This document shows, in pieces, positions 7,576 to 56,167 of a DNA stretch of 64,000 nucleotides; position 1 is the first letter of the stretch; every line of letters begins with the position of its first letter. Source of the stretch: Oscillospiraceae bacterium (GTDB lineage Bacteria; Bacillota; Clostridia; Oscillospirales; SIG627); contig SVTC01000003.1 of assembly GCA_015063985.1 (NCBI GenBank), positions 69,162-133,161 on the forward strand, read 5' to 3'. The notes under the pieces are model-generated. The model ran no database searches, was not told the origin of the DNA, and worked only from the letters and a program-made list of their open reading frames with translations. The position numbers and the translations under genes were made by a program.

Positions 7576-7651
7576 AGGGGTATAGCTCAGTTGGTAGAGC
7601 AGCGGTCTCCAAAACCGCGTGTCCAGAGTTCGAGTCTTTGTGCCCCTGCCA
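7576..7651 (+). tRNA. tRNA-Trp (CCA anticodon)
   Basis: A 76-base cloverleaf. The acceptor AGGGGTA pairs with TGCCCCT, the D arm is GCTCAGTTGGTAGAGC, the anticodon stem GCGGT/ACCGC closes the loop CTCCAAA (anticodon CCA), and the T arm contains GTTCGAGT. The discriminator is G and CCA is encoded. A terminator hairpin starts directly at the 3' end. Confidence 0.95.
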
Positions 7652-7682
7652 AAAAATCCAAGTCGAAAGACTTGGATTTTTT
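7651..7682 (+). terminator. terminator after tRNA-Trp, also first hairpin of array 1
   Basis: A-rich arm plus stem TCCAAGTC-GAAA-GACTTGGA followed by a T run. The symmetric A/T flanks allow it to work in both directions. The same kind of hairpin heads arrays 2 and 3. Confidence 0.85.
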
Positions 7683-7860
7683 CATTTGTGTCCTGCGGAC
7701 ACAACATCGTTTGACCGAAGGTCAACATCATTTCGAGCAAAGCGAGAACATCATTGTCCGCTTGCGGACACAAATGAACGATGTTGCACTGCGTGCAAAT
7801 GATGTGCTTCGCAATGATGTGGGCTTTGCCCAATGATGTTGCGCTTCGCGCAAACGGAAT
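7683..7860 (+). repeat. hairpin array 1 (eight small hairpins joined by complementary linkers)
   Basis: Eight short palindromes follow each other: TTGTGTCC-TGC-GGACACAA (7686-7704), TTGACC-GAA-GGTCAA (7711-7725), an imperfect TTCGAGC hairpin (7732-7748), TGTCCGC-TT-GCGGACA (7755-7770), TTGCAC-TGC-GTGCAA (7784-7798), TGC-TTC-GCA (7805-7813), TGGGC-TTT-GCCCA (7820-7832) and TTGCGC-TTC-GCGCAA (7839-7853). Linkers in the left half read ACATCATT or ACATCGTT; those in the right half read the reverse complement AATGATGT or ACGATGT. The whole block can therefore fold into one long stem with side hairpins. It ends in CAAACGGAATTG, as array 2 does (CAAACGGACTTG). There is no convincing coding frame. 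Confidence 0.85.
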
Positions 7861-7943: not shown

Positions 7944-8156
7944 GTGAGAGAATATAAACTCGGTAATCTTTCAATGGAATTATCCGTTGAGGTTTTGCAG
8001 TTGACAAAAGAGTTACGAGCGAAGCACGAGAACGTGATCTCCAATCAGATCAGTAGAAGTGCGACGAGTATTTGCGCCAATATTGCCGAAAGCAAATACG
8101 CCCACGGTTGCGCCGATTTTATCGCCAAGCTTGAAATCTCGCTCAAAACGCTTTAG
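7944..8156 (+). pseudogene. four-helix-bundle protein (23S rRNA intervening-sequence family), truncated
   Basis: A 70-residue frame starting at GTG after AAAGGCGGTG. The core ISNQISRSATSICANIAES, followed by FIAKLEISLKTL, matches the first half of the four-helix-bundle family known from 23S rRNA intervening sequences and structurally related to retroelement Avd proteins. Full members run to about 115-120 residues (compare 27368-27721); here a TAG cuts off the last helices just before the convergent phosphoesterase gene. It is probably a decayed copy. Hairpin array 1 lies immediately upstream. Confidence 0.7.
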
Positions 8157-23540: not shown

Positions 23541-24113
23541 ATGAAAACGGTAAAGGAAAAGAAATTGGTAGTTGGTGCGGATTTTGCAGGCTACCCTCTC
23601 AAGGAAGCGGTCGTTGCCCACCTTAAAGCAAAGGGCTGGGAAATAACCGATATGGGCGTGAAGGCGGACTCCGACCCCAACGATACCGACCTTATGTTCC
23701 ACAGAGTGGGACTTCGCGTCGGCGCGATGATCTCAGAAGGTGAATTTGAAAGAGCGCTTCTTTTCTGCGGAACGGGTATGGGAATACATATTGCGGCAAG
23801 CAAGTGTCCTCACGTGCATTCGGGAGTTGTGGAAAGCGTTCCCGCGGCTCTTCGCGCCATCACGGGCAACGGTGTAAACGTTCTTGCTATGGGCGCCTTC
23901 TACGTCGCTCCCGCAATGGGCTGCGACATTGCCGATGCATATCTTAATGCAGAGCTGGGAAGCGGTTACGAGTGGTGGAAAAATTTCTACGAATTCCATA
24001 AGCTTGCCATCGATGAGCTTGAAGCCTTCGACTATGAGGAATATAAGAAAAACGGCTACAAGGTAAATAAGCTGGGAGACTTTCCTCTTAAGCTCGAAAC
24101 CAAGCCCGATTAA
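23541..24113 (+). CDS. RpiB/LacA/LacB-family sugar-phosphate isomerase
   Basis: 190 residues. It has VVGADFAGYPLKEAVVAHLK at the N terminus and the family signature CGTGMGIHIAASK with the active-site Cys. RpiB-type enzymes interconvert aldose and ketose phosphates (ribose-, allose- or erythrulose-type). The start at 23541 follows AGGAGA. The last 63 codons plus 3' flank (23923-24276) are duplicated at 25611-25964, on the far side of a foreign glycosidase gene. Confidence 0.85.
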   Translation: MKTVKEKKLVVGADFAGYPLKEAVVAHLKAKGWEITDMGVKADSDPNDTDLMFHRVGLRVGAMISEGEFERALLFCGTGMGIHIAASKCPHVHSGVVESVPAALRAITGNGVNVLAMGAFYVAPAMGCDIADAYLNAELGSGYEWWKNFYEFHKLAIDELEAFDYEEYKKNGYKVNKLGDFPLKLETKPD

Positions 24114-24276
24114 AAAACCGCCGTTGAAGCCTTGGACGCAGTACCCATAACACAAACGAAAAAAACGAATATAAAAAGTCCATCTAATATGTAACGCAAA
24201 AAATCAAGCGACCTTTCAAGGTCGCTTGATTTTTGTGATTCGTGTCCGAAAAGAACCGAGTAAAAACCGAGGATTT
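23923..24276 (+). repeat. 354-base direct repeat, left copy
   Basis: It runs from GCGACATTGCC inside the isomerase gene through its stop and terminator to ACCGAGGATTT. It matches 25611-25964 at about 95% by eye, at equal length. The two copies flank 1.3 kb with a glycosidase-like gene. Confidence 0.9.
24201..24235 (+). terminator. terminator of the LacI-isomerase operon
   Basis: AAATCAAGCGACCTT-TC-AAGGTCGCTTGATTT followed by T residues. The hairpin is carried inside the 354-base repeat, so a second copy exists at 25892. Confidence 0.85.
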
Positions 24277-25562: not shown

Positions 25563-25610
25563 TTTTCAGTCCGTTTCCCGGAATCGTGACCGATCGCGTC
25601 GCGGTGTGCC

Positions 25611-25964
25611 GCGACATTGCCGATGCATACCTTAATGCAGAGCTGGGAAGCGGCTACGAGTGGTGGGAAAATTTCTACGAATTCCATAAGCTTGCCATCG
25701 ACGAGCTTGAAGCCTTCGACTATGAGGAATATAAGAAAAACGGCTACAAGGTAAATAAGCCGGGAGACTTTCCTCTTAAACTCGAAACCAAGCCCGATTA
25801 AAAAACCGCCGTTGAAGCCTTGGATGCAGTACCCATAACACAAACGGGAAAAAACGAATGAAAAAGTCCATCTAATATGTAACGCAAAAAAACAAGCGAC
25901 CTTGAAAGATCGCTTGATTTTTGTGATTTGTGTCCGAAAAGAACCGAGTAAAAACCGAGGATTT
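25611..25964 (+). repeat. 354-base direct repeat, right copy, with isomerase C-terminal remnant
   Basis: It begins at GCGACATTGCCGATGC and carries the final 63 codons of the RpiB-like gene (25611-25801), its stop, and its terminator hairpin at 25892-25920 (one stem position no longer pairs). Two of the six coding differences change residues (Lys to Glu, Leu to Pro). Without the active-site half it cannot be functional. Confidence 0.9.
25892..25925 (+). terminator. duplicated terminator within the right repeat
   Basis: CAAGCGACCTT-GAA-AGATCGCTTG followed by ATTTTTG. It would terminate the glycosidase transcript. Confidence 0.75.
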
Positions 25965-25970
25965 TCTTTT

Positions 25971-26360
25971 TTATATGAAATATTGCTTATATTCAGGTTG
26001 GGATTTTATATCCTTCATTAAATCCTCTTCATTTATAAATAAAGAATGCCCGCAAATTCCTAAATACGGCTCCCACATAGCCGGAAGTGCATCATCATTT
26101 GAACAAATATATTTCCACTCATCTTCATCAAATTGATAAATTGCTTCCAATTCGTATGTAAAAATACCTTTTTCGTCTTTAAGAACTACGTAACGCATCG
26201 ATTTGTCCTTGGAATAAAAAACACTTATTACCTCATCGCAAAAAGCATCCAAATATTTATCATATAGCAATTCAACTATCTTATCCCAAGAAGGCATTGG
26301 CGGTACAGGTTCAATTTTTAATTGTCTGTTTTTCTTAAATAAACTTCTAAGCCACTTCAT
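25971..26360 (-). CDS. unknown small protein downstream of hairpin array 2
   Basis: 129 residues starting at the ATG at 26360 after AAAGGTCGGTG; longer in-frame starts lie inside the hairpin array and are rejected. It begins with a basic segment (MKWLRSLFKKNRQLK) and continues with an acidic, aromatic-rich body (YVVLKDEKGIFTYELEAIYQFDEDEWKYI). This resembles small SMI1/immunity-like proteins in composition, but no family is claimed. It has a clear promoter at the edge of array 2. Confidence 0.6.
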   Translation of the reverse strand: MKWLRSLFKKNRQLKIEPVPPMPSWDKIVELLYDKYLDAFCDEVISVFYSKDKSMRYVVLKDEKGIFTYELEAIYQFDEDEWKYICSNDDALPAMWEPYLGICGHSLFINEEDLMKDIKSQPEYKQYFI

Positions 26361-26411: not shown

Positions 26412-26593
26412 GTCCGTTTGCACGAAGTGCAACATCGTTGGGCATAAGCCCACATCATTGATGCGGAGCATCACATCATTTGTGCGAAGCACAACCTCGT
26501 TTTGTGTCCGCAAGCGGAATGATGTTGACCTACGGTCAAATGATGTTTGCAACTGCGTTGCAAAACGATGTTGTGTCCTGCGGACACAAACAC
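26412..26593 (-). repeat. hairpin array 2 (eight hairpins, same plan as array 1)
   Basis: Read on the minus strand, the hairpins in order are TTGTGTCC-GCA-GGACACAA (26589-26571), TTTGCAAC-GCA-GTTGCAAA, TTGACC-GTA-GGTCAA, TCCGC-TT-GCGGA, TTGTGC-TTC-GCACAA, TGATGC-TCC-GCATCA, TGGGC-TTAT-GCCCA and TTGCAC-TTC-GTGCAA (26432-26418). Linkers read ACATCGTT/ACATCATT in the first half and ATGATG/ACGATG in the second. First, fourth, seventh and eighth hairpins correspond by position to those of array 1 although bases differ. The end CAAACGGACTTG matches array 1. Confidence 0.85.
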
Positions 26594-26631
26594 AAAAAAC
26601 AAAGCACTTCCGAAGAAGTGCTTTGTTTTTT
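26594..26631 (-). terminator. A/T-flanked hairpin heading array 2
   Basis: AAAAAACAAAGCACTTC-CGAA-GAAGTGCTTTGTTTTTT, symmetric and so potentially bidirectional; it also lies just past the end of the 26676-27242 gene. Confidence 0.8.
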
Positions 26632-26655
26632 GGAAAGAGGGCCCAAAAAAGATGC
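26632..26655 (-). repeat. conserved outer boundary of arrays 2 and 3 (copy in array 2)
   Basis: GGAAAGAGGGCCCAAAAAAGATGC follows the heading hairpin; nearly the same sequence follows the heading hairpin of array 3 at 27992-28015. Array 1 has tRNA-Trp at this position instead. Confidence 0.7.
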
Positions 26656-26675: not shown

Positions 26676-27242
26676 TTAGTTTTCGACAACGATTTGTTCA
26701 ACAAGCTCCGCAATTTTATCGGTTACATAACCGAGGGCTGCAAACTTGTCTTGGGTTTCCATATCGGAATCATTTATCATTGCCATATTGTTATCAAATG
26801 CCGATTTCACCAAATTAACCTTTTTGGTTTCCGCGTTTTGAACGTCCTCGTACATCTTTTCATACATTTCCAGCATTTTAAGAAGCGTTATCTCTCTCGT
26901 CTTAAAAACGCCGCAAATTTCGGGAATTTGCTCAAAACGATCCTCGCAATCTTCTCCCTCGAGTGATGAAAGCGCATCTCCAAGACGATGCAAGGATGTC
27001 TGACTGTTTTCGGTAAGCTGCTTTTGTAATATTGTAAGTTGTACGAATATTTCTTTTGCGGTTAATTTATTTTCTTCCATTTTTTCTTCCTCCAAAATTT
27101 TATCCGGAGGACACGCAAGGCATATTTTATTTTCATCTACGAAGCGTGCCCTGCCGTTCTTTACAAGACCTTTCGCCCGTTTTGGGTAGGTCGCCTCATA
27201 TTCATTTCCTTGCTCATCAACTACAATTACGTTTTTTTCGAT
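26676..27242 (-). CDS. unknown protein with no standard start codon (AUC start proposed)
   Basis: The frame is open from 27314 but contains no ATG, GTG or TTG before the TTG at 27095. It nevertheless reads as protein from IEKNVIVVDEQGNEYEATYP through RAKGLVKNGRARFVDENKIC. An AAGGGGGG ribosome site lies eight bases before an ATC at 27242, where an ATG would be expected, giving 188 residues. The C-terminal part is helical (KEIFVQLTILQKQLTEN). No family is claimed. Either AUC serves as start, ATG has mutated, or translation begins at the internal TTG. A strong promoter lies upstream. Confidence 0.6.
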   Translation of the reverse strand: MEKNVIVVDEQGNEYEATYPKRAKGLVKNGRARFVDENKICLACPPDKILEEEKMEENKLTAKEIFVQLTILQKQLTENSQTSLHRLGDALSSLEGEDCEDRFEQIPEICGVFKTREITLLKMLEMYEKMYEDVQNAETKKVNLVKSAFDNNMAMINDSDMETQDKFAALGYVTDKIAELVEQIVVEN

Positions 27243-27367: not shown

Positions 27368-27721
27368 TTATTTGTTATCAATTTTCTTTTCAATCGTAAT
27401 ACACGACGAGGTGAGTATTCTTTGTATTCTGCCGCAGAGGTTACGATAGGTTTTGAAGGTTTCTTCATCTATTGTTTTTGTGTTATAAAGTAATTTGAGC
27501 CAGCTTTCCGTTTCGGCACACTCTTTTCTTGCAATCTTGAATTTGGAAAGCATGTCTGCAAGGCTTTGGGGATATTGCGCTTCGGTAATATTAGCAAACA
27601 CACTCGATGAGGATTTGCGAAGCTGAAAAACAGTGTTGGAATTACCGCTGATAGATTTACAAAGCAGTTCACATTTTGTGGCAAGTTCTTCGGAATATTC
27701 GAGCAATAAATTCTTTGCCAT
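27368..27721 (-). CDS. four-helix-bundle protein (23S rRNA intervening-sequence / Avd-like family)
   Basis: 117 residues, full length for the family. Core segments are NTVFQLRKSSSSVFANITEA, then MLSKFKIARKECAETESWLK and a final helix. Relatives occur inside 23S rRNA intervening sequences and resemble the Avd accessory proteins of diversity-generating retroelements; they form positively charged oligomers that bind nucleic acid. The start at 27721 follows AAAGGAGA. Array 3 lies directly upstream with no separate promoter seen, so the array may form the 5' untranslated region. No rRNA or reverse transcriptase is nearby. Confidence 0.8.
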   Translation of the reverse strand: MAKNLLLEYSEELATKCELLCKSISGNSNTVFQLRKSSSSVFANITEAQYPQSLADMLSKFKIARKECAETESWLKLLYNTKTIDEETFKTYRNLCGRIQRILTSSCITIEKKIDNK

Positions 27722-27751
27722 TAGGTTCTCCTTTCGCGTCCTTCGCATCCA

Positions 27752-27957
27752 AATCACGGCGTAGCCGTGGATGAAATCCGCCGCAGGCGGTATGTCCTCA
27801 GCCCGTAAGGGCTGTATGGAATCAACACGAAGTGTTGTATGTTATCAAGCCGACGAATATGCACGCCCCGGCGTGATGCCATACGCGACTCCGTCGCAAT
27901 TACATACAATGCGCAAGCGCATTGATTCCATGCCAAGCCTCCTTCGTCGGCTTGGAT
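27752..27957 (-). repeat. hairpin array 3 (divergent subtype)
   Basis: Small hairpins include CACGGC-GTA-GCCGTG, CCGCC-GCA-GGCGG, CAGCCC-GTAA-GGGCTG, AACAC-GAA-GTGTT, GCGAC-TCC-GTCGC and AATGCGC-AA-GCGCATT. Linkers again pair at a distance: ATGGAATCAA (27816-27825) with TTGATTCCAT (27922-27931), and TTGTATGT (27835-27842) with ACATACAA (27902-27909). An 11-base segment AAGCCGACGAA (27847-27857) complements TTCGTCGGCTT (27943-27953), crossing those pairs, or the latter forms a local CCAAGCC/GGCTTGG hairpin. Linker bases differ from arrays 1 and 2 but the plan is the same. Confidence 0.75.
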
Positions 27958-27991
27958 AAAAAAGAACGAAGCGATTGCTTCGTTCTTTTTT
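27958..27991 (-). terminator. A/T-flanked hairpin heading array 3
   Basis: AAAAAAGAACGAAGC-GATT-GCTTCGTTCTTTTTT, a symmetric and potentially bidirectional terminator. Confidence 0.8.
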
Positions 27992-28015
27992 GGGAAGAGG
28001 GCCCAAAAAAGATGC
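27992..28015 (-). repeat. conserved outer boundary (copy in array 3)
   Basis: GGGAAGAGGGCCCAAAAAAGATGC, matching 26632-26655 except at one or two bases. It contains a GGGCCC palindrome between purine runs. Confidence 0.7.
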
Positions 28016-28036: not shown

Positions 28037-28155
28037 GCTTTTCGCCACAGCGAAAAGCTACCTTTTCTTTTCTCTCTTCTCTCTTATCTCTTCTCTGGAA
28101 AAGTCGCGCGGGGGATTTAGTGAAAAGTGAAGAGTGAAAAGAGAAGAGTGAAGAG
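28037..28155. repeat. hairpin and polypyrimidine/polypurine inverted repeat beside tRNA-Cys
   Basis: GCTTTTCGC-CACA-GCGAAAAGC (28037-28058), then a pyrimidine tract (28061-28095, CTTTTCTTTTCTCTCTTCTC...) and a purine tract (28120-28155, GTGAAAAGTGAAGAGTGAAA...) that are largely complementary. GAAAAGTCGCG near 28098 also complements CGCGACTTTTC near 28178. No coding frame or RNA family is recognised. Confidence 0.6.
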
Positions 28156-28165
28156 TACAAAAAGA

Positions 28166-28192: not shown

Positions 28193-28267
28193 TGGAGGCG
28201 TCACCCGGATTTGAACCGGGGAATAACGGTTTTGCAGACCGTGGCCTTACCACTTGGCTATGACGCC
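28193..28267 (-). tRNA. tRNA-Cys (GCA anticodon)
   Basis: A 75-base cloverleaf on the minus strand. The acceptor GGCGTCA pairs with TGACGCC, the anticodon stem ACGGT/ACCGT encloses CTGCAAA (anticodon GCA), and the T arm contains GGTTCAAATCC. The discriminator is T and CCA is encoded. Confidence 0.95.
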
Positions 28268-38961: not shown

Positions 38962-40605
38962 ATGCCTATTACATCCATTCTTGAACAAAATTCCCGTCTG
39001 TATCCCAACGATATAGCATTGACGGAGATCAACCCCAAGGTAGAGAGCAAGCCCCAGCTTACCTGGAGAGAGTATTCTCTCATCGAAAGCTCTCCCGGAG
39101 ACTCCTACAGAAGAGAGCTGACCTGGTCCGCCTTCGACAAGAAGGCAAACCGTCTGGCAAACCTTCTTCTGGCAAGAGGAGTAAAGAAGGGCGAGAAAAT
39201 AGCCATTCTTCTTATGAACTGCCTTGAGTGGCTCCCCATCTATTTCGGAATACTCAAAGCAGGCGCAATGGCGGTGCCCTTAAACTACCGCTATACCTCC
39301 GACGAAATAAAATACTGTCTTGATCTTGCCGATGCCGACGGACTTTTATTCGGTCCCGAATTCTGCGACAGAGTGGGTGCGATAGTGGGAGACATACCCA
39401 AGGTAAAGCACCTTATGTACGTGGGCAAGGATTGCCCCGCCTTCTGTGAAAGCTATGACAGGCTGGTGGGATACTGCTCGGGAAAATCCCCCAACGTTCC
39501 CATTTGCGACGAGGACGATGCCGCCATATATTTTTCATCGGGCACAACGGGCTTTCCCAAGGCGATAGTACATACTCACACAAGCCTTATGCACTCTGCC
39601 CGCACCGAGCAGGCACATCACTCCCAGACCAGAGACGACGTTTTTTTGTGCATTCCTCCCCTTTACCACACGGGCGCGAAGATGCACTGGTTCGGAAGCT
39701 TTCTCGTAGGCTCCAAGGCAGTTATCCTCAAGGGTATCAAGCCACAGTGGATACTCAAGGCGGTCAGCGAGGAAAAATGCAGTATAGTCTGGCTTCTTGT
39801 GCCCTGGGCGCAGGATATTCTGGATGCCATCGACAGAGGCGAGATAGACTTAAACGATTATCAGCTCAGCCAATGGAGGCTTATGCATATCGGTGCGCAG
39901 CCCGTTCCTCCCAGCCTTATCAAGCGTTGGAAGGAGCGCTTCCCCGATCATCAGTACGACACCAACTACGGTCTCAGCGAATCCATAGGCCCCGGCTGCG
40001 TGCATCTGGGTGTGGAAAACATCCACAAGGTGGGCGCCATCGGCAAGGCAGGCTTTGGATGGCAGGTAAAAATAGTAGATCCCGCAGGGAACTCCGTCAA
40101 GCAGGGGGACGTGGGCGAGCTGGCGGTTAAGGGCCCCGGCGTAATGAAGGAATATTACAAGGATCAGAAGGCCACCGAGGAGGTCCTGAAGGACGGCTGG
40201 CTCTACACCGGCGATATGGCAACTCAGGACGAGGACGGCTTTATCTACCTTGTTGACAGAAAAAAGGACGTCATCATCTCCGGCGGTGAGAATCTTTATC
40301 CCGTACAGATCGAGGACTTTCTCAGAAAGCACGATAAGATCAGCGACGTTGCGGTCATCGGACTTGCAGATGCAAGACTCGGCGAGATAGCCGCCGCCAT
40401 AATCCAGGTCAAGGAGGGCTATGATCTTACCGTTGAGGAAATAGCTCAGTTCTGTATGGAGCTGCCCCGTTACAAGCGTCCTCACAAATTTATCTTTGCC
40501 GAGGTTCCGAGAAATCCCACCGGCAAGATAGAAAAGCCCAAGCTCAGAAAGCTCTACGGAGCCGATAAAGTTGTAGCAATGCAAAACGAGATCAAGGAGA
40601 AATAA
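38962..40605 (+). CDS. AMP-forming acyl-CoA ligase
   Basis: 547 residues of the ANL superfamily. The phosphate loop is YFSSGTTGFPKAIVHTH (about 188-204), followed by LMHIGAQPVPPS, GLSESIGPG, WLYTGDMATQDEDGFIYLVD and the C-terminal lysine motif NPTGKIEKPKLRK. It makes an acyl-CoA from a free acid through an acyl-adenylate. Its place between the symporter and iorA suggests an aryl-acid substrate. The start codon follows the symporter stop directly. Confidence 0.85.
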   Translation: MPITSILEQNSRLYPNDIALTEINPKVESKPQLTWREYSLIESSPGDSYRRELTWSAFDKKANRLANLLLARGVKKGEKIAILLMNCLEWLPIYFGILKAGAMAVPLNYRYTSDEIKYCLDLADADGLLFGPEFCDRVGAIVGDIPKVKHLMYVGKDCPAFCESYDRLVGYCSGKSPNVPICDEDDAAIYFSSGTTGFPKAIVHTHTSLMHSARTEQAHHSQTRDDVFLCIPPLYHTGAKMHWFGSFLVGSKAVILKGIKPQWILKAVSEEKCSIVWLLVPWAQDILDAIDRGEIDLNDYQLSQWRLMHIGAQPVPPSLIKRWKERFPDHQYDTNYGLSESIGPGCVHLGVENIHKVGAIGKAGFGWQVKIVDPAGNSVKQGDVGELAVKGPGVMKEYYKDQKATEEVLKDGWLYTGDMATQDEDGFIYLVDRKKDVIISGGENLYPVQIEDFLRKHDKISDVAVIGLADARLGEIAAAIIQVKEGYDLTVEEIAQFCMELPRYKRPHKFIFAEVPRNPTGKIEKPKLRKLYGADKVVAMQNEIKEK

Positions 40606-50949: not shown

Positions 50950-51208
50950 AAAGGCTATGACGAAGACAAACGGGTCTGTCATCCTCACAGAGAGTCGGCG
51001 GTGCTGCGATGCCGACAGGATCGTTTTCCCAATGTTTTATCCCTTCCGAGCCGAAGGTCCCAAAGCATTTTGCAAGTAGGCGCCTTCCGTGATTGCTGCG
51101 TTAAGGCATAGAGCTTGTCAGAGCTCGAGAGTGGCGTATTTATACGCAATTTGAGTGGTACCGCGGATATACTATCCGTCTCAAAGGAAACTTTGAGACG
51201 GATTTTTT
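50950..51208 (+). promoter_or_regulatory. T-box leader 2 (specifier tentatively AUC, Ile)
   Basis: Stem I has GGCT/AGCC at the base, AGAGAG (50989-50994) and a distal hairpin GTCGGC...GCCGAC. The T-box sequence AGTGGTACCGCGG is at 51154-51166 and the terminator ATCCGTCTCAAAG-GAAA-CTTTGAGACGGAT plus T run at 51174-51208. Placing the specifier as in the Tyr leader (one base before the CTTC stem) gives ATC (Ile), but the usual GAA before it is missing and TAT or TTT cannot be excluded. The TGGT bulge fits an A discriminator. Bases 51085-51166 are nearly identical to T-box 3. Confidence 0.8.
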
Positions 51209-51240
51209 TATTACTTTGACTAAAAAAGGAGAAAAACAAA

Positions 51241-53511
51241 ATGGAACATTTAAACCTTTCAAATCCTTTGGCGGAGATGGCAGCAAGAATCAGAGAAATG
51301 CGTTCGATTCTTGGTTTCGGTATTGAAGAGATCGCCGAAAAGACCGGAGTATCTGTTTCCGATTACGAAAAATATGAAAACGGCTTGGCAGATATGCCCT
51401 TCTCCTTCATTCATAAGTGTGCATTGGCATTCGGTATCGAGCTTACCGATCTTCTGGAGGGAAGCAGCGCAAAGCTCAGCTCCTACACCGTAACAAGAAA
51501 GGGCGAGGGTCAGCTGACAGTCAAGGAAAACGGCATAGAGATCCAAAACCTTGCGCCCCTTTTCAGAAACAAGATCGCCGAGCCCCATTGGGTACGTTAT
51601 GCATACGACGAAAAGCAGCAAAACCTCCCTATCCACCTGGCAACTCACAGCGGTCAGGAATTTGATATAGTCTTCAGCGGCAGCTTAAAGGTGCAGGTCG
51701 GCGGCCACACCGAGATCCTTCACGAGGGAGACAGCATCTATTACAACAGCTCCACTCCCCACGGAATGATCGCCGTAGACGGCAAGGACTGTGTATTCTG
51801 TGCGGTGGTACTGCCCGGAGATGACAAGGCAAGCCCCGAGGAGGTCAGAAATAACATAGTCGCCGCAGCCAAGACCGAGAATCTGCTTATCGAGAAGTTT
51901 ATAAAGTGCACCGAGAACGAAAACGGCGTTCTGGAAAAGATCGATTTCGAAAACGAAAACAGCTACAACTTCGCCTTCGATACCGTCGACGCCCTTGCAG
52001 ACGCTTATCCCGAAAAGCTGGCTATGATCCACGTGTCCAACGATATGACCGAGCGCCGCTTTACCTTTAAGGATCTGAAAAAGCAGTCCAATCAGTGTGC
52101 AAACTACTTTAAGTCCCTTGGCATCAAAAAGGGCGACAAGGTAATGCTTGTATTGAAGAGACACTATCAGTTCTGGCTCTCCATCCTTGCCCTGCACAAG
52201 CTGGGAGCTATAGCGATCCCCGCCACTAACCAGCTCCTCGAGCACGATTTTGAATACCGCTTCACCTCTGCCGGAGTCAGCGCTATAATCTGCACCTCCG
52301 ACGGCGAGACCTCAAGCCACGCCGAAAGAGCGGCAAATAAGTGCCCCGAGCTTGTAAACAGACTCATCGTAGGCGCGCCCAAGGAGGGCTGGAGAAACTT
52401 CAACGAGGAGTACAAGCTCTTCTCCTCCAAGTTTGAAAGGACTGCCGACAGCCCCTGCGGAGACGATCCTATGATCATGTTCTTCACCTCGGGAACCACA
52501 GGCTACCCCAAGATCGCCTGCCATAGCTACAAATACGCTCTCGGCCACTTCATCACCGCAAGATACTGGCACTGCGTAAAGCCCGACGGCTTGCATCTTA
52601 CCATATCCGACACCGGCTGGGGCAAGGCTCTCTGGGGCAAGCTTTACGGTCAGTGGATGAGCGAGGGCGCGGTATTTGCCTACGACTTCGACCGCTTCGA
52701 CGCCGCAAAGATCCTTCCCATGTTCGCAAAATACAAAATAACCACCTTCTGCGCACCTCCCACAATGTACAGAATGCTTATCAAGGAGGATCTTTCAAAG
52801 TACGATCTTTCCAGCATAGTATACGCCACCACAGCAGGCGAAGCGCTTAACCCCGAGGTTATGGTTCAGTTCAAGAAGGCCACCGGTCTTACCATAATGG
52901 AAGGCTTCGGCCAGACGGAAACAACTCTGGTCATCGCAAATCTTGTGGGAACCACTCCCAAGCCCGGCGCAATGGGCAAGCCCGTTCCTCTCTACGACGT
53001 TGACATAGTCGATCCCGACGGAAAGAGTGTGGGGATCGGCGAAAACGGCGAGATCGTTATCCACACCGAAAGCTCTGTTCCCTGCGGACTCTTCAAGGGC
53101 TATTACAGAGGCGAGGACAAGACCCGCGAGGCTTGGCACGACGGTCTCTATCACACCGGCGACGTTGCCTGGAGAGATGAGGACGGCTACTATTGGTACG
53201 TTTCCCGTATCGACGACGTTATCAAATCCTCCGGCTACCGCATCGGACCCTTCGAGATCGAGAACGTCATCATGGAGCTTCCCTACGTTCTTGAGTGCGG
53301 TGTATCCGCCGCTCCCGACGAGATCAGAGGTCAGGTAGTCAAGGCAAGCATCGTGCTTACCAAGGGCACCGAGCCCACCGAGGAGCTGAAAAAGGAGATC
53401 CAGAACTACGTTAAGAAAAACACCGCACCTTATAAATATCCGCGTATTGTAGAATTCAAGACCGAGCTTCCCAAAACGATAAGCGGAAAGATCCAAAGAA
53501 ACAAGCTGTAA
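51241..53511 (+). CDS. HTH-cupin-acyl-CoA ligase fusion protein (copy 1)
   Basis: 756 residues. An XRE-type helix-turn-helix (~11-66: ARIREMRSILGFGIEEIAEK) is followed by a cupin domain (~108-195: FDIVFSGSLKVQVGGHTEIL, DSIYYNSSTPHGMIAV) and a medium-chain-type AMP-forming acyl-CoA synthetase (FFTSGTTGYPKIACHS ~414; MEGFGQTETTLV; GLYHTGDVAWRDEDGYYWY; KTISGKIQRNKL). HTH plus cupin is normally a small-ligand repressor; here it is joined to the enzyme. It is directly behind T-box 2. Branched short-chain acids are the likely substrates of this ligase group, by inference. Confidence 0.85.
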   Translation: MEHLNLSNPLAEMAARIREMRSILGFGIEEIAEKTGVSVSDYEKYENGLADMPFSFIHKCALAFGIELTDLLEGSSAKLSSYTVTRKGEGQLTVKENGIEIQNLAPLFRNKIAEPHWVRYAYDEKQQNLPIHLATHSGQEFDIVFSGSLKVQVGGHTEILHEGDSIYYNSSTPHGMIAVDGKDCVFCAVVLPGDDKASPEEVRNNIVAAAKTENLLIEKFIKCTENENGVLEKIDFENENSYNFAFDTVDALADAYPEKLAMIHVSNDMTERRFTFKDLKKQSNQCANYFKSLGIKKGDKVMLVLKRHYQFWLSILALHKLGAIAIPATNQLLEHDFEYRFTSAGVSAIICTSDGETSSHAERAANKCPELVNRLIVGAPKEGWRNFNEEYKLFSSKFERTADSPCGDDPMIMFFTSGTTGYPKIACHSYKYALGHFITARYWHCVKPDGLHLTISDTGWGKALWGKLYGQWMSEGAVFAYDFDRFDAAKILPMFAKYKITTFCAPPTMYRMLIKEDLSKYDLSSIVYATTAGEALNPEVMVQFKKATGLTIMEGFGQTETTLVIANLVGTTPKPGAMGKPVPLYDVDIVDPDGKSVGIGENGEIVIHTESSVPCGLFKGYYRGEDKTREAWHDGLYHTGDVAWRDEDGYYWYVSRIDDVIKSSGYRIGPFEIENVIMELPYVLECGVSAAPDEIRGQVVKASIVLTKGTEPTEELKKEIQNYVKKNTAPYKYPRIVEFKTELPKTISGKIQRNKL

Positions 53512-53535
53512 TACGGGATTTAAGACAATAAACTA

Positions 53536-53564
53536 TTGACAAAATCCAAAAGATATGATATACT
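53536..53564 (+). promoter_or_regulatory. promoter of T-box 3
   Basis: TTGACA at 53536-53541, 17-base spacer, TATACT at 53559-53564. Confidence 0.85.
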
Positions 53565-53579
53565 CTCAGTATATTTATA

Positions 53580-53847
53580 AGAGGCATTGATGGGGAGTGA
53601 AGGGACACCGCACCCACAGAGAGACGGCGCTTGCTGAAAAGCCGTTGTTGCAGGATCCTGTTCTGTAGCCCTTGAGCCGAAAGGAAGAAAGCGAATTTTC
53701 GCCGTAGAACCTTTCCGTGATTGCTGCGTTAATGCATAGAGCTTGTCAGAGCTTGAGAGTGGCGTATTTATACGCAATTTGAGTGGTACCGCGGGTAATT
53801 TTATTGCTCGTCTCAAAGGATAATATCTTTTGGGACGGGCATTTTTT
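53580..53847 (+). promoter_or_regulatory. T-box leader 3 (specifier tentatively GUA, Val)
   Basis: Stem I has AGAGAG (about 53618-53623) and a distal hairpin ACGGC...GCCGT. The T-box sequence AGTGGTACCGCGG is at 53782-53794 and the terminator GCTCGTCTCAAAG...CTTTTGGGACGGGC plus T run at 53806-53847. Using the geometry of the Tyr leader, the triplet one base before the GGGG/CCCT lower stem is GTA (Val); TTC (Phe) is a weaker alternative. Bases 53713-53794 match T-box 2 at 80 of 82 positions while Stem I differs almost throughout. Confidence 0.8.
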
Positions 53848-53878
53848 GTCTAACGTCCCGCGAAATCAGGAGGAAGAA

Positions 53879-56167
53879 ATGAAACCTATAAGCGGCTTGG
53901 ACTATAAGATCCGCCTTATGGCACTGAGAATCAAGGAGCTAAGAGAAATAGAAGGGCTCACTCAGGAGCAAATGGCAAAAAAGACAGGCACAGATCTTGA
54001 TGAATATCTCGCCTGCGAAAAGGGCGACAAGGACCTGAACTTTGCCTTCTTGTACCGTTGTGCTATGGCACTGAACGTTGACGTAACCGACATAATCCAG
54101 GGCTCCAGCCCTACCCTTGCGGGCTATACCCTCACCAGAAAGGGCGAGGGCCAGAAGATCGAAAAAGCCCATTCAATGACCTATTACAATCTGGCGGCAT
54201 CCTTTAAAAACAGGATCGCAGAGCCCCTGATGGTCGTAGCGGCCTACGAGCCCGATCAGAATGACCTTCAGCTCACCAGCCATGACGGTCAGGAGTGCGA
54301 TATCGTTATATCGGGCTCCCTTAAGGTTCAGGTGGGAAGCCACGTTGAGATCCTTAACGAGGGCGACAGCATCTACTATGACAGCTCCGTTCCTCACGGA
54401 CTTGCTGCAGTGGGTGGAAAGGACTGTCTTTTCTACGCAATGGTGCTTAATCCCACGGGAGAGCCGATCCCCGAGCTTTCCGGCGAAAAGAGTGAGACCA
54501 CAAGCACACCCAAGCATCTCAGCAACGAGTCCACTCAGCGCATCTACAAGAAATGGGCAAGCATCAAAAAGGATGAAAACGGAACTCCCGTGGACGTCAG
54601 CTTTGAAAACACCGACGACTTCAACTTCGCCTTTGACGTTGTGGACGAGCTGGGCAGAACAAAGCCCCAAAAGCTCTGTATGCTGCATCTTGACGTTAAT
54701 AAGACTGAGAGACGCTTCACCTTCAAGGATATAAGCGTAGCCAGCGCAAAATGTGCAAACTACTTTAAGTCCCTGGGCATCAAAAAGGGCGACAGAGTTA
54801 TGCTGGTATTAAAGCGCCATTACCAATTCTGGTTCAGTATGCTCGCTCTCAACAAGCTGGGCGCGATTGCGATCCCCGCAACAAACCAGCTTAAGGAGCA
54901 CGATTTTGAATACCGCTTCAAGGCGGCGGGAATAAGCGCCATAGTATGTACCTCCGACGGCGACACCGCCGCTCAGGTAGACATAGCCGCAGCAAGCTGT
55001 CCGGAGCTTACCACCAAGATAATCGTCGGCGCTCAGCGCGAGGGCTGGAGAAGCTTCGACGATGAATATCCCTCCTTCAGCGATGAGTTCCCCAGGACCG
55101 CAGATTCTCCAAAGGGCAACGATCTTATGCTTATGTTCTTCTCTTCGGGAACGACAGGCTATCCCAAGATCGCCGCCCACGATCACAAATATCCCCTCGG
55201 CCATCTTGTCACCGCAAAATATTGGCACTGCGTAGATCCCGACGGCTTGCATCTTACCATATCCGATACAGGCTGGGCGAAGGCTATGTGGGGCAAGCTT
55301 TACGGCCAGTGGCTCTGCGAGGCGGCAACCTTTGTATATGACTTTGACCGCTTCAGCGCAAGCGATATACTGCCCCTCTTCAGTCAGTATCACATAACCA
55401 CCTTCTGTGCACCTCCCACAATGTACAGAATGATGATAAAGGAAGACCTTACAAAATACGATCTTTCCAGCGTTTCTCACGCCACCATCGCAGGAGAGGC
55501 ACTCAATCCCGAGGTATTCAAGCAGCTTGAGAAGCTCACCGGTCTGCAGGTCATGGAGGGCTTCGGCCAAAGCGAAAGCACTCTGATGATAGGTAACCTT
55601 GCGGGAGCATCCCACAAGCTGGGATCTATGGGTAAGCCCGTACCCGGCTACAATATCGATATTGTGGATCCCGACGGCAAGAGTGTCGACGCCGGCGAGA
55701 CCGGTGAAATAGTAGTACGCACCGAAAACGGCAAGCCCTGCGGACTTTTCGTGGAGTACTTCAACGATGCCGCCAAGACCCGCGAGGCTTGGCACGACGG
55801 TCTCTACCACACCGGCGACGTTGCCTGGAAGGACGAGGACGGCTTCTATTGGTACGTTTCCCGTATTGATGACGTTATCAAATCCTCGGGCTACCGCATC
55901 GGCCCCTTCGAGATCGAAAGCGTTATTATGGAGCTTCCCTACGTTTTGGAATGCGGAGTTTCAGCCGCACCCGATGATATCAGAGGCCAGGTAGTCAAGG
56001 CAAGCATAGTTCTTACCAAGGGCACCCAACCTACCGAAGAATTGAAAAAAGAGATACAGGAATACGTCAAGAAGAAGACCGCGCCTTACAAATACCCCCG
56101 TATCGTAGAATTTAAGACCGAGCTTCCCAAGACGACCAGCGGTAAGATAATCCGCAGCAAATTATGA
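53879..56167 (+). CDS. HTH-cupin-acyl-CoA ligase fusion protein (copy 2)
   Basis: 762 residues from the ATG at 53879, after AGGAGGAAG; a longer frame runs back into the T-box terminator and is rejected. Domain order equals copy 1: XRE HTH (ALRIKELREIEGLTQEQMAK), cupin (CDIVISGSLKVQVGSHVEIL, YYDSSVPHGLAAV) and AMP-forming ligase (FFSSGTTGYPKIAAHD ~419; MEGFGQSESTLM; GLYHTGDVAWKDEDGFYWY; KTTSGKIIRSKL). The ligase halves are closely similar, the N-terminal halves less so. It leads into the P-loop, ferredoxin and VOR genes with overlaps or short gaps. Confidence 0.85.
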   Translation: MKPISGLDYKIRLMALRIKELREIEGLTQEQMAKKTGTDLDEYLACEKGDKDLNFAFLYRCAMALNVDVTDIIQGSSPTLAGYTLTRKGEGQKIEKAHSMTYYNLAASFKNRIAEPLMVVAAYEPDQNDLQLTSHDGQECDIVISGSLKVQVGSHVEILNEGDSIYYDSSVPHGLAAVGGKDCLFYAMVLNPTGEPIPELSGEKSETTSTPKHLSNESTQRIYKKWASIKKDENGTPVDVSFENTDDFNFAFDVVDELGRTKPQKLCMLHLDVNKTERRFTFKDISVASAKCANYFKSLGIKKGDRVMLVLKRHYQFWFSMLALNKLGAIAIPATNQLKEHDFEYRFKAAGISAIVCTSDGDTAAQVDIAAASCPELTTKIIVGAQREGWRSFDDEYPSFSDEFPRTADSPKGNDLMLMFFSSGTTGYPKIAAHDHKYPLGHLVTAKYWHCVDPDGLHLTISDTGWAKAMWGKLYGQWLCEAATFVYDFDRFSASDILPLFSQYHITTFCAPPTMYRMMIKEDLTKYDLSSVSHATIAGEALNPEVFKQLEKLTGLQVMEGFGQSESTLMIGNLAGASHKLGSMGKPVPGYNIDIVDPDGKSVDAGETGEIVVRTENGKPCGLFVEYFNDAAKTREAWHDGLYHTGDVAWKDEDGFYWYVSRIDDVIKSSGYRIGPFEIESVIMELPYVLECGVSAAPDDIRGQVVKASIVLTKGTQPTEELKKEIQEYVKKKTAPYKYPRIVEFKTELPKTTSGKIIRSKL

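Follow-up and report, generated by a model that had tools for sequence, protein, structure and literature searches.

A mirror-hairpin array in an Oscillospiraceae genome is a derivative of a tRNA-associated array module linked to PF05635 genes in gut Clostridia

PF05635/S23 proteins are widespread, and we know of no function for them. The family occurs in the IVS elements of 23S rRNA, which are regarded as selfish and are excised from rRNA by RNase III. The S23 protein of X. campestris is a toroidal homopentamer, and the Coxiella IVS carries short repeats, GACAGAT heptamers, upstream of its ORF (PMC4990558). The family also resembles Avd (PMC10053308), of the diversity-generating retroelements (DGRs). 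Here, we describe an array of eight hairpins (array 2) in the window, by which we mean the whole 64-kb stretch of DNA that was analyzed, and we compare it and its relatives with these and other described systems. The relatives have a common plan, in which a terminator is followed by an arm A, a run of hairpins each followed by a linker X, an arm A', a second run of hairpins each preceded by the complementary linker X', a promoter, and a small gene.

This module fails a tested defining feature of each of the IVS, REP, and DGR elements. Like the Coxiella IVS it has short repeats upstream of its ORF, and like the IVSs that encode S23 it involves the PF05635 family; it does not lie within 23S rRNA, however, but after tRNA genes, and it has its own terminator and promoter and a mirror hairpin array where the IVS has a single terminal stem. 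An IVS is inserted within a helix of the 23S rRNA gene, but Rfam detected no rRNA in the 64-kb window, and the modules follow tRNA or small genes. Intergenic palindromes in opposite orientations, a partner gene, and a frequent location downstream of genes recall the REPIN/BIME-RAYT systems (PMC3733652), but the modules have 6 to 8 hairpins in a fixed mirror plan, and their partner is a nonenzymatic four-helix bundle (the gene adjoining the arrays is PF05635) whereas RAYT is a Y1 transposase. Neither a GTAG nor a CGTC tag was found at the foot of the palindromes, and the linkers (AATGATGT, GTGAAGT, GTGATAT, and others) form no fixed tag. Small genes in one orientation between folded sites, the tested cargo mostly lacking a family, resemble integron cassettes with their attC sites, from which the module differs in its promoter and terminator for every cassette, its far larger site, and its tRNA anchoring. 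DGRs share a homologous four-helix bundle family with the module, but reverse transcriptase (RT) is lacking in 21 of 22 host-family genomes, and template and variable repeats were unseen; RVT_1 was detected in one genome (G018), which has no match to the array pattern, and RT-dependent mobility of the DGR or retron kind was rejected on the absence of RVT_1 from the other 21. A known RNA family as the identity of the arrays was also rejected, as Rfam 15 gave no match above the gathering score at them. By analogy, the module may work somewhat like REPIN-RAYT, with palindromes and a partner gene, and somewhat like integron cassettes. Because no description of a tRNA-PF05635 array arrangement was found in Rfam or in the literature, searched among open-access and not subscription papers, we rate the system as new.

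Array 2 itself occupies positions 26412 to 26593 of the minus strand, as judged from sequence and folding. A sequence-only reading had proposed that it repeats the eight-hairpin plan of a second array in the window (array 1), headed by an A/T hairpin and closed by TTG. The minus-strand sequence and the folds of both arrays bear out the common plan. The heading hairpin is present as well, but it is a bidirectional intrinsic terminator directly 5' of the array (26594 to 26631; minus-strand 26631 to 26594, AAAAAACAAAGCACTTC-TTCG-GAAGTGCTTTGTTTTTT), and the closing TTG is likewise real but is the start of the −35 box of a promoter (TTGATT-17-TATAAT, 26411 to 26383, minus strand) that adjoins the array end and is placed alike in relatives. 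Between terminator and promoter, the minus strand reads through hairpin 1 (hp1), TTGTGTCC(GCA)GGACACAA, and linker ACATCGTT; hp2, TTGCAAC(GCA)GTTGCAA, and hp3, TGACC(GTA)GGTCA, each followed by ACATCATT; hp4, CCGC(TT)GCGG, and AACGAGGT; hp5, TTGTGC(TTC)GCACAA, and hp6, GATGC(TCC)GCATC, each followed by AATGATGT; hp7, GGGC(TTAT)GCCC, and AACGATGT; and hp8, TTGCAC(TTC)GTGCAA, followed by ACGGA. The linkers of the left half are thus three copies of ACATCRTT, and those of the right half are one copy of AACGAGGT, which has no partner, and three of the complementary AAYGATGT. The exact complementarity claimed earlier for the first and last linkers was confirmed, and the inner linkers ACATCATT and AATGATGT are also complementary. 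Arm A (TTTGTGTCCGC, 26580 to 26590, minus strand) can pair with the right arm of hp1 or with arm A' (GCGGACACAAA, 26501 to 26511, minus strand), which lies between the halves; A:A' complementarity occurs in 41 of 45 arrays of the family. Folded as RNA, a 241-nt stretch reaches −99 kcal/mol against −61.9 ± 4.6 for shuffled sequences (z = −8.07); folded as DNA, the same stretch has a z score of −9.87 against shuffles. Comparison with 50,697 phage and 72,556 plasmid records yielded no match, and we rejected an origin in these records.

Array 2 thus has four features of the module, namely, the terminator, the mirror linkers X and X', the arms A and A', and the abutting promoter. The gene directly downstream, however, is not PF05635 but encodes a 129-aa protein (25971 to 26360, minus strand) with no match in Pfam, NCBIfam, PADLOC, or PHROGs. 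Because this no-family gene comes next, array 2 is a derivative of the tRNA-PF05635 array module and not a full member. It stands within a minus-strand chain headed by tRNA-Cys (28193 to 28267; ARAGORN and Rfam), which continues with a polypyrimidine stretch, an array of a second class with its terminator (27751 to 27991; linker GTATG and then CATAC; arms A AAGCCGACGAA and A' TTCGTCGGCTT; fold z = −7.2), a gene for a PF05635 four-helix bundle (27368 to 27721; PF05635 E = 2.1e-18; TIGR02436), and an ORF of unknown family listed at 139 aa (26676 to 27095) and ends with array 2 and the 129-aa gene; this position in the chain leaves array 2 without a PF05635 gene of its own. The polypyrimidine stretch is part of a polypyrimidine/polypurine inverted stretch (CTTTTCTCTTTTCGTTC.. 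/ AGAGAAGAGAAAAGG, approximately 28060 to 28160, minus strand) that follows tRNA-Cys, tRNA-Leu, and tRNA-Gln in this genome; at L307 and L308 such a stretch lies ahead of PF05635 genes whose subclade lacks mirror linkers. Next to the array 2 chain are the two copies of a 300-nt direct repeat (23912 to 24211 and 25600 to 25899), which are 93% identical. The sequence GCATCTTTTTTGGGCCCTCTTYCC occurs at 26623 to 26655 and 27983 to 28015, immediately ahead of the terminator of arrays that have no tRNA before them; comparable tails, ATATCTTTTTCGTAGCC and GCATCTATTAAGKYCAGAACACAC, stand ahead of arrays in L087, L132, L034, and L312, and this element may be a conserved 3' tail of the cassette.

Array 1, on the plus strand, directly follows tRNA-Trp (7576 to 7651) and together with its terminator (7651 to 7682) spans 7651 to 7853, the array proper being 7683 to 7853 (fold z = −6.4). 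It is followed by a PF05635 gene (7944 to 8156) that ends after 70 aa and is the only PF05635 gene of the GATG class that we found in the genome. The genome-wide copy number called for by the sequence-only reading came to three full copies, at window positions 7683 to 7853 and 26412 to 26593 and on another contig at C29:97021-97214, where the array directly follows tRNA-Leu with the same plan as arrays 1 and 2, plus one rearranged relative (C20:92715-92884), whose twin at C31:26-92 is probably the same DNA. Since the sole same-class PF05635 gene found is truncated, array 2, which would rely on such a protein in trans, is probably an orphan in this genome; the genome is approximately 91% complete, so a further GATG-class gene may be missing from it.

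The module comes in 11 or more linker classes, of which array 2 and its like make up one, and it usually sits directly 3' of a tRNA gene. A search with the linker pattern located arrays in 11 of 22 host-family genomes (the reversed-pattern control gave no match), and many metagenome-assembled genomes of gut Clostridia were also among the matches listed; the matches inspected outside the Clostridia were set aside as mostly simple tandem repeats without hairpins. The frame around the arrays recurs as a tRNA or small gene, a two-way terminator, the array, a promoter, a ribosome site, and a small gene, most commonly of the PF05635 family (23S_rRNA_IVP; TIGR02436 four helix bundle). We sampled 76 PF05635 genes from the host family and from across the order, chosen regardless of arrays, and scored a mirror plan where at least five linker copies lay within 620 nt upstream. 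The plan was present upstream of 45 of the 76 genes, compared with none of 760 dinucleotide shuffles and 1 of 72 other window ORFs; the detector demands a complementary second half, and the shuffles exclude an origin by chance. A few of the 31 genes without a detected mirror array still adjoin tRNAs. The linker words differ by class (AATGATGT, GTGAAGT, GTGATAT, ATGAAG, TGAAAT, TGAATT, AGTTATAT, AGCTAAAT, ATTATTCA, and others), and because the tRNA-Cys class of the window has a five-base linker, GTATG/CATAC, a six-base detector undercounts. Arm A opens the array and can pair either with the neighboring hp1 or with A' between the halves (TTCATTTGTGTCC/GGACACAAATGAA in array 1; other arrays have TAAGTGTGCC, TTATATTCGCCT, and further sequences). 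In 41 of the 45 arrays, A' complements A over at least 8 nt, and in 37 the match exceeds every shuffle. Given the order A, X, A', X', the A:A' and X:X' pairings cross, giving either a pseudoknot or two alternative folds. Most triloops have the form TNC on one side of the array and GNA on the opposite side. A −10 box (at least 5 of 6 positions) was found in 32 of 45 arrays at a median of 29 nt past the last linker, which sets the promoter directly against the array end.

Outside the host order, none of 16 assessable PF05635 genes had an array or a tRNA just upstream, and we rejected the array as a general property of PF05635. Plasmid-borne relatives of PF05635 lie in ordinary operons. On a plasmid of Monoglobus pectinilyticus (NZ_OY725736.1, L513), an unannotated PF05635 frame is flanked by hsdS and hsdR in a type I restriction operon. 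Among IMG/VR contigs, L212 has a true mirror array near the contig end and L223 a partial one; the remaining matching stretches failed the hairpin filter. Terminators ahead of several array classes (L059, L060, L048, L104, L317, L306, and L322) share an inner core, TTTGTCTACC..GACAAA, and their outer stem varies with its pairing kept.

Comparisons among loci indicate that the array and its PF05635 gene move horizontally as a unit, because homology between modules can end at the PF05635 stop codon and because PF05635 proteins are 92 to 96% identical across genera or families in which ProRS is only 67 to 71% identical. Within one genus, by contrast, PF05635 proteins of different classes are as little as 55% alike while ProRS is 91% alike. 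Such block ends are seen in L312 and L393, which are 92% identical over 603 bp from the T-tract of the terminator to the first base after the PF05635 stop, and in L394 and L395 (83% similarity), which likewise end at the stop; in several other pairs the match fades 10 to 20 bases before the stop codon. Different loci share little similarity beyond the module itself, and L393 and L394 both lie between tRNA-Gln and the same downstream gene, yet their modules are of different classes. A same-strand tRNA lies within 420 nt upstream of 35 of the 76 PF05635 genes, and 14 isotypes are represented. On a quick PF05635 tree of 116 columns, in which many forks are open, linker class requires 12 changes against a shuffled mean of 29.9 (minimum, 24), whereas tRNA isotype (25 changes against 26.0) and host family (35 against 36.0) look random. 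Cassettes can stack: L087 holds a chain of small genes, each with its own terminator, array, and promoter, and L212 a shorter one. No empty site was found by comparing ProRS/tRNA-Cys loci, which are not syntenic, and the gene downstream of tRNA-Gln had only two clear carriers among relatives, both occupied. At L445 and L446, the PF05635 stop overlaps the start of a downstream nucleotidyltransferase-like gene (ATGA and GTGA); since relatives elsewhere carry this gene without a module, it is a gene of general occurrence that lies after some of the modules.

The earlier reading held that stems that differ in bases yet remain paired are evidence for selection on structure. The compensatory-change count that it proposed for arrays 1 and 2 gave 5 stem pairs in which both bases had changed and pairing was kept, where approximately 0.3 would be estimated if the sides changed independently at the observed rate; a further 40 to 43 pairs are unchanged, 0 to 1 are changed on one side, and 3 to 4 are broken. 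When 13 pairs of related arrays were compared, double changes that keep the pairing numbered 67, against approximately 10 expected from the change rate, and 192 stem pairs were broken, some of which probably belong to stems of flanking, unmasked tRNA. The upkeep of pairing was thereby upheld, but RNA structure was not specifically supported. RNA under selection is expected to favor G.U on its own strand. In arrays at least 80% alike, one-sided stem changes gave 123 G.T and 148 A.C pairs (with 303 two-sided Watson-Crick changes), counts that are not independent because arrays recur in many pairs, and neither strand has a bias of G.T over A.C. DNA hairpins, or copying from arm to arm, fit the stem changes better than RNA does, and arm copying at replication could maintain the pairing even in stems that are not under selection. 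The alternative that the same reading had named, recombination of a small pool of standard hairpins, holds in part, because some inner hairpins have changed places; TGACC..GGTCA, for example, stands second (hp2) in array 1 and third (hp3) in array 2. Inner hairpins can be exchanged to some extent, while hp1, hp8, and the left and right halves keep their position. Evidence for constraint is strongest in the linkers, where across at least 11 classes the word differs and the halves stay complementary.

We consider it about an even chance that array 2 forms the upstream module of a cassette with horizontal mobility, one of a large family within a single order of gut Clostridia, and that the array acts as DNA with PF05635 as its partner. 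The unit consists of a bidirectional terminator, a mirror hairpin array, a promoter, and a small gene, and units are sometimes stacked head to tail after tRNAs; in many members the small gene encodes a PF05635 four-helix bundle (Avd/S23-like; related proteins form pentameric rings), the presumed partner of the array. The analysis shows the anatomy of the module, its recurrence, its anchoring at tRNAs, the congruence of linker and protein, its movement as a unit, and the block ends. We infer that PF05635 binds the array, that the working form is DNA, and that the array has a role in mobility: hairpins extruded from the duplex or formed in single strands would be spaced by linker words, and a PF05635 ring would read the class-specific linkers and mark or handle the cassette end in transfer or recombination. 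The module itself encodes no enzyme, and a separate enzyme would do the cutting and joining. The solved structure nearest to the PF05635 protein is 2rld, which has five chains. Linker recognition is suggested by the congruence of linker class with the protein tree, by the uniform linkers of each array, and by the lack of class mixing within a genome; we put it forward as a hypothesis because congruence alone could stem from linkage. More tentatively, and we would not bet on it, this may be a new mobile cassette system, anchored at tRNA 3' ends, with multihairpin DNA ends and a class-specific PF05635 ring that reads the linker; the element would carry no transposase and involve no RNA intermediate. 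For PF05635/S23, a candidate nucleic acid site that changes together with the protein gives a direct, testable hypothesis of what a ring protein recognizes, and the array classes offer a natural set of matched protein-site pairs. If true, the proposal would uncover one way in which gut Clostridia come to stack small genes of unknown function at their tRNA genes.

The main rival, which we judge rather unlikely, is that PF05635 binds the repeated linkers as an operator upstream of the promoter and controls the expression of its own and neighboring genes, the linkers being iteron-like at a spacing of approximately 20 nt and the mobility being ordinary recombination between repeated flanks. Such an operator would account for a promoter whose −10 lies a median of 29 nt past the last linker and for the uniformity of the linkers in each array and their congruence with the PF05635 protein, but it would need neither perfect variable hairpins nor A:A' arms nor a mirror plan, and arrays also precede genes other than PF05635, as array 2 does. 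An array that instead acts as a structured RNA to which PF05635 binds, in the manner of Avd and its RNA in DGRs, would suit the resemblance of PF05635 to Avd (PMC10053308), the strong RNA folds, and a bidirectional terminator that could stop a transcript from either side. The stems have no G.U preference on either strand, though, the array lies between terminator and promoter and so outside the gene transcript, RT is absent in 21 of 22 genomes, and no Rfam family was found at the arrays, all of which make this improbable.

Passive repeats of the REP/BIME kind, in which arm copying keeps the pairing and the arrays are tolerated after terminators and hitchhike with linked genes, seem improbable to a like degree: the shared hairpin vocabulary, the swaps between positions, the whole-array tandem copies in L316, and the neutrality of sites after terminators would all be explained, but a fixed plan, linkers that are specific to each class and change together with their complement, conserved A:A' arms, and a persistent partner gene would be unexpected. 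Most doubtful of all, and in our estimate very improbable, is an integron-like reading in which a tyrosine integrase acting in trans would use the array as a folded single-strand site similar to attC. Cassette chains in a single orientation, with small genes of which several are of unknown family, would fit it, and tRNA anchoring recalls integrase targeting; every cassette has its own promoter and terminator, however, the sites are approximately 200 nt with 6 to 8 hairpins, insertions occur at many tRNA isotypes and at non-tRNA sites, and no integrase gene was noticed directly beside the arrays.

At L316 (G007:C1), approximately three tandem copies of a whole array (approximately 200 bp each) stand before one PF05635 gene, after tRNA-Pro. 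In the window, at 51067 to 55393, long ORFs are duplicated in tandem (51241 to 53511 and 53783 to 56167), with matching stretches 74 to 89% identical, and a 37-nt motif is common to these ORFs and to an AMP-binding gene at 38962 to 40605.
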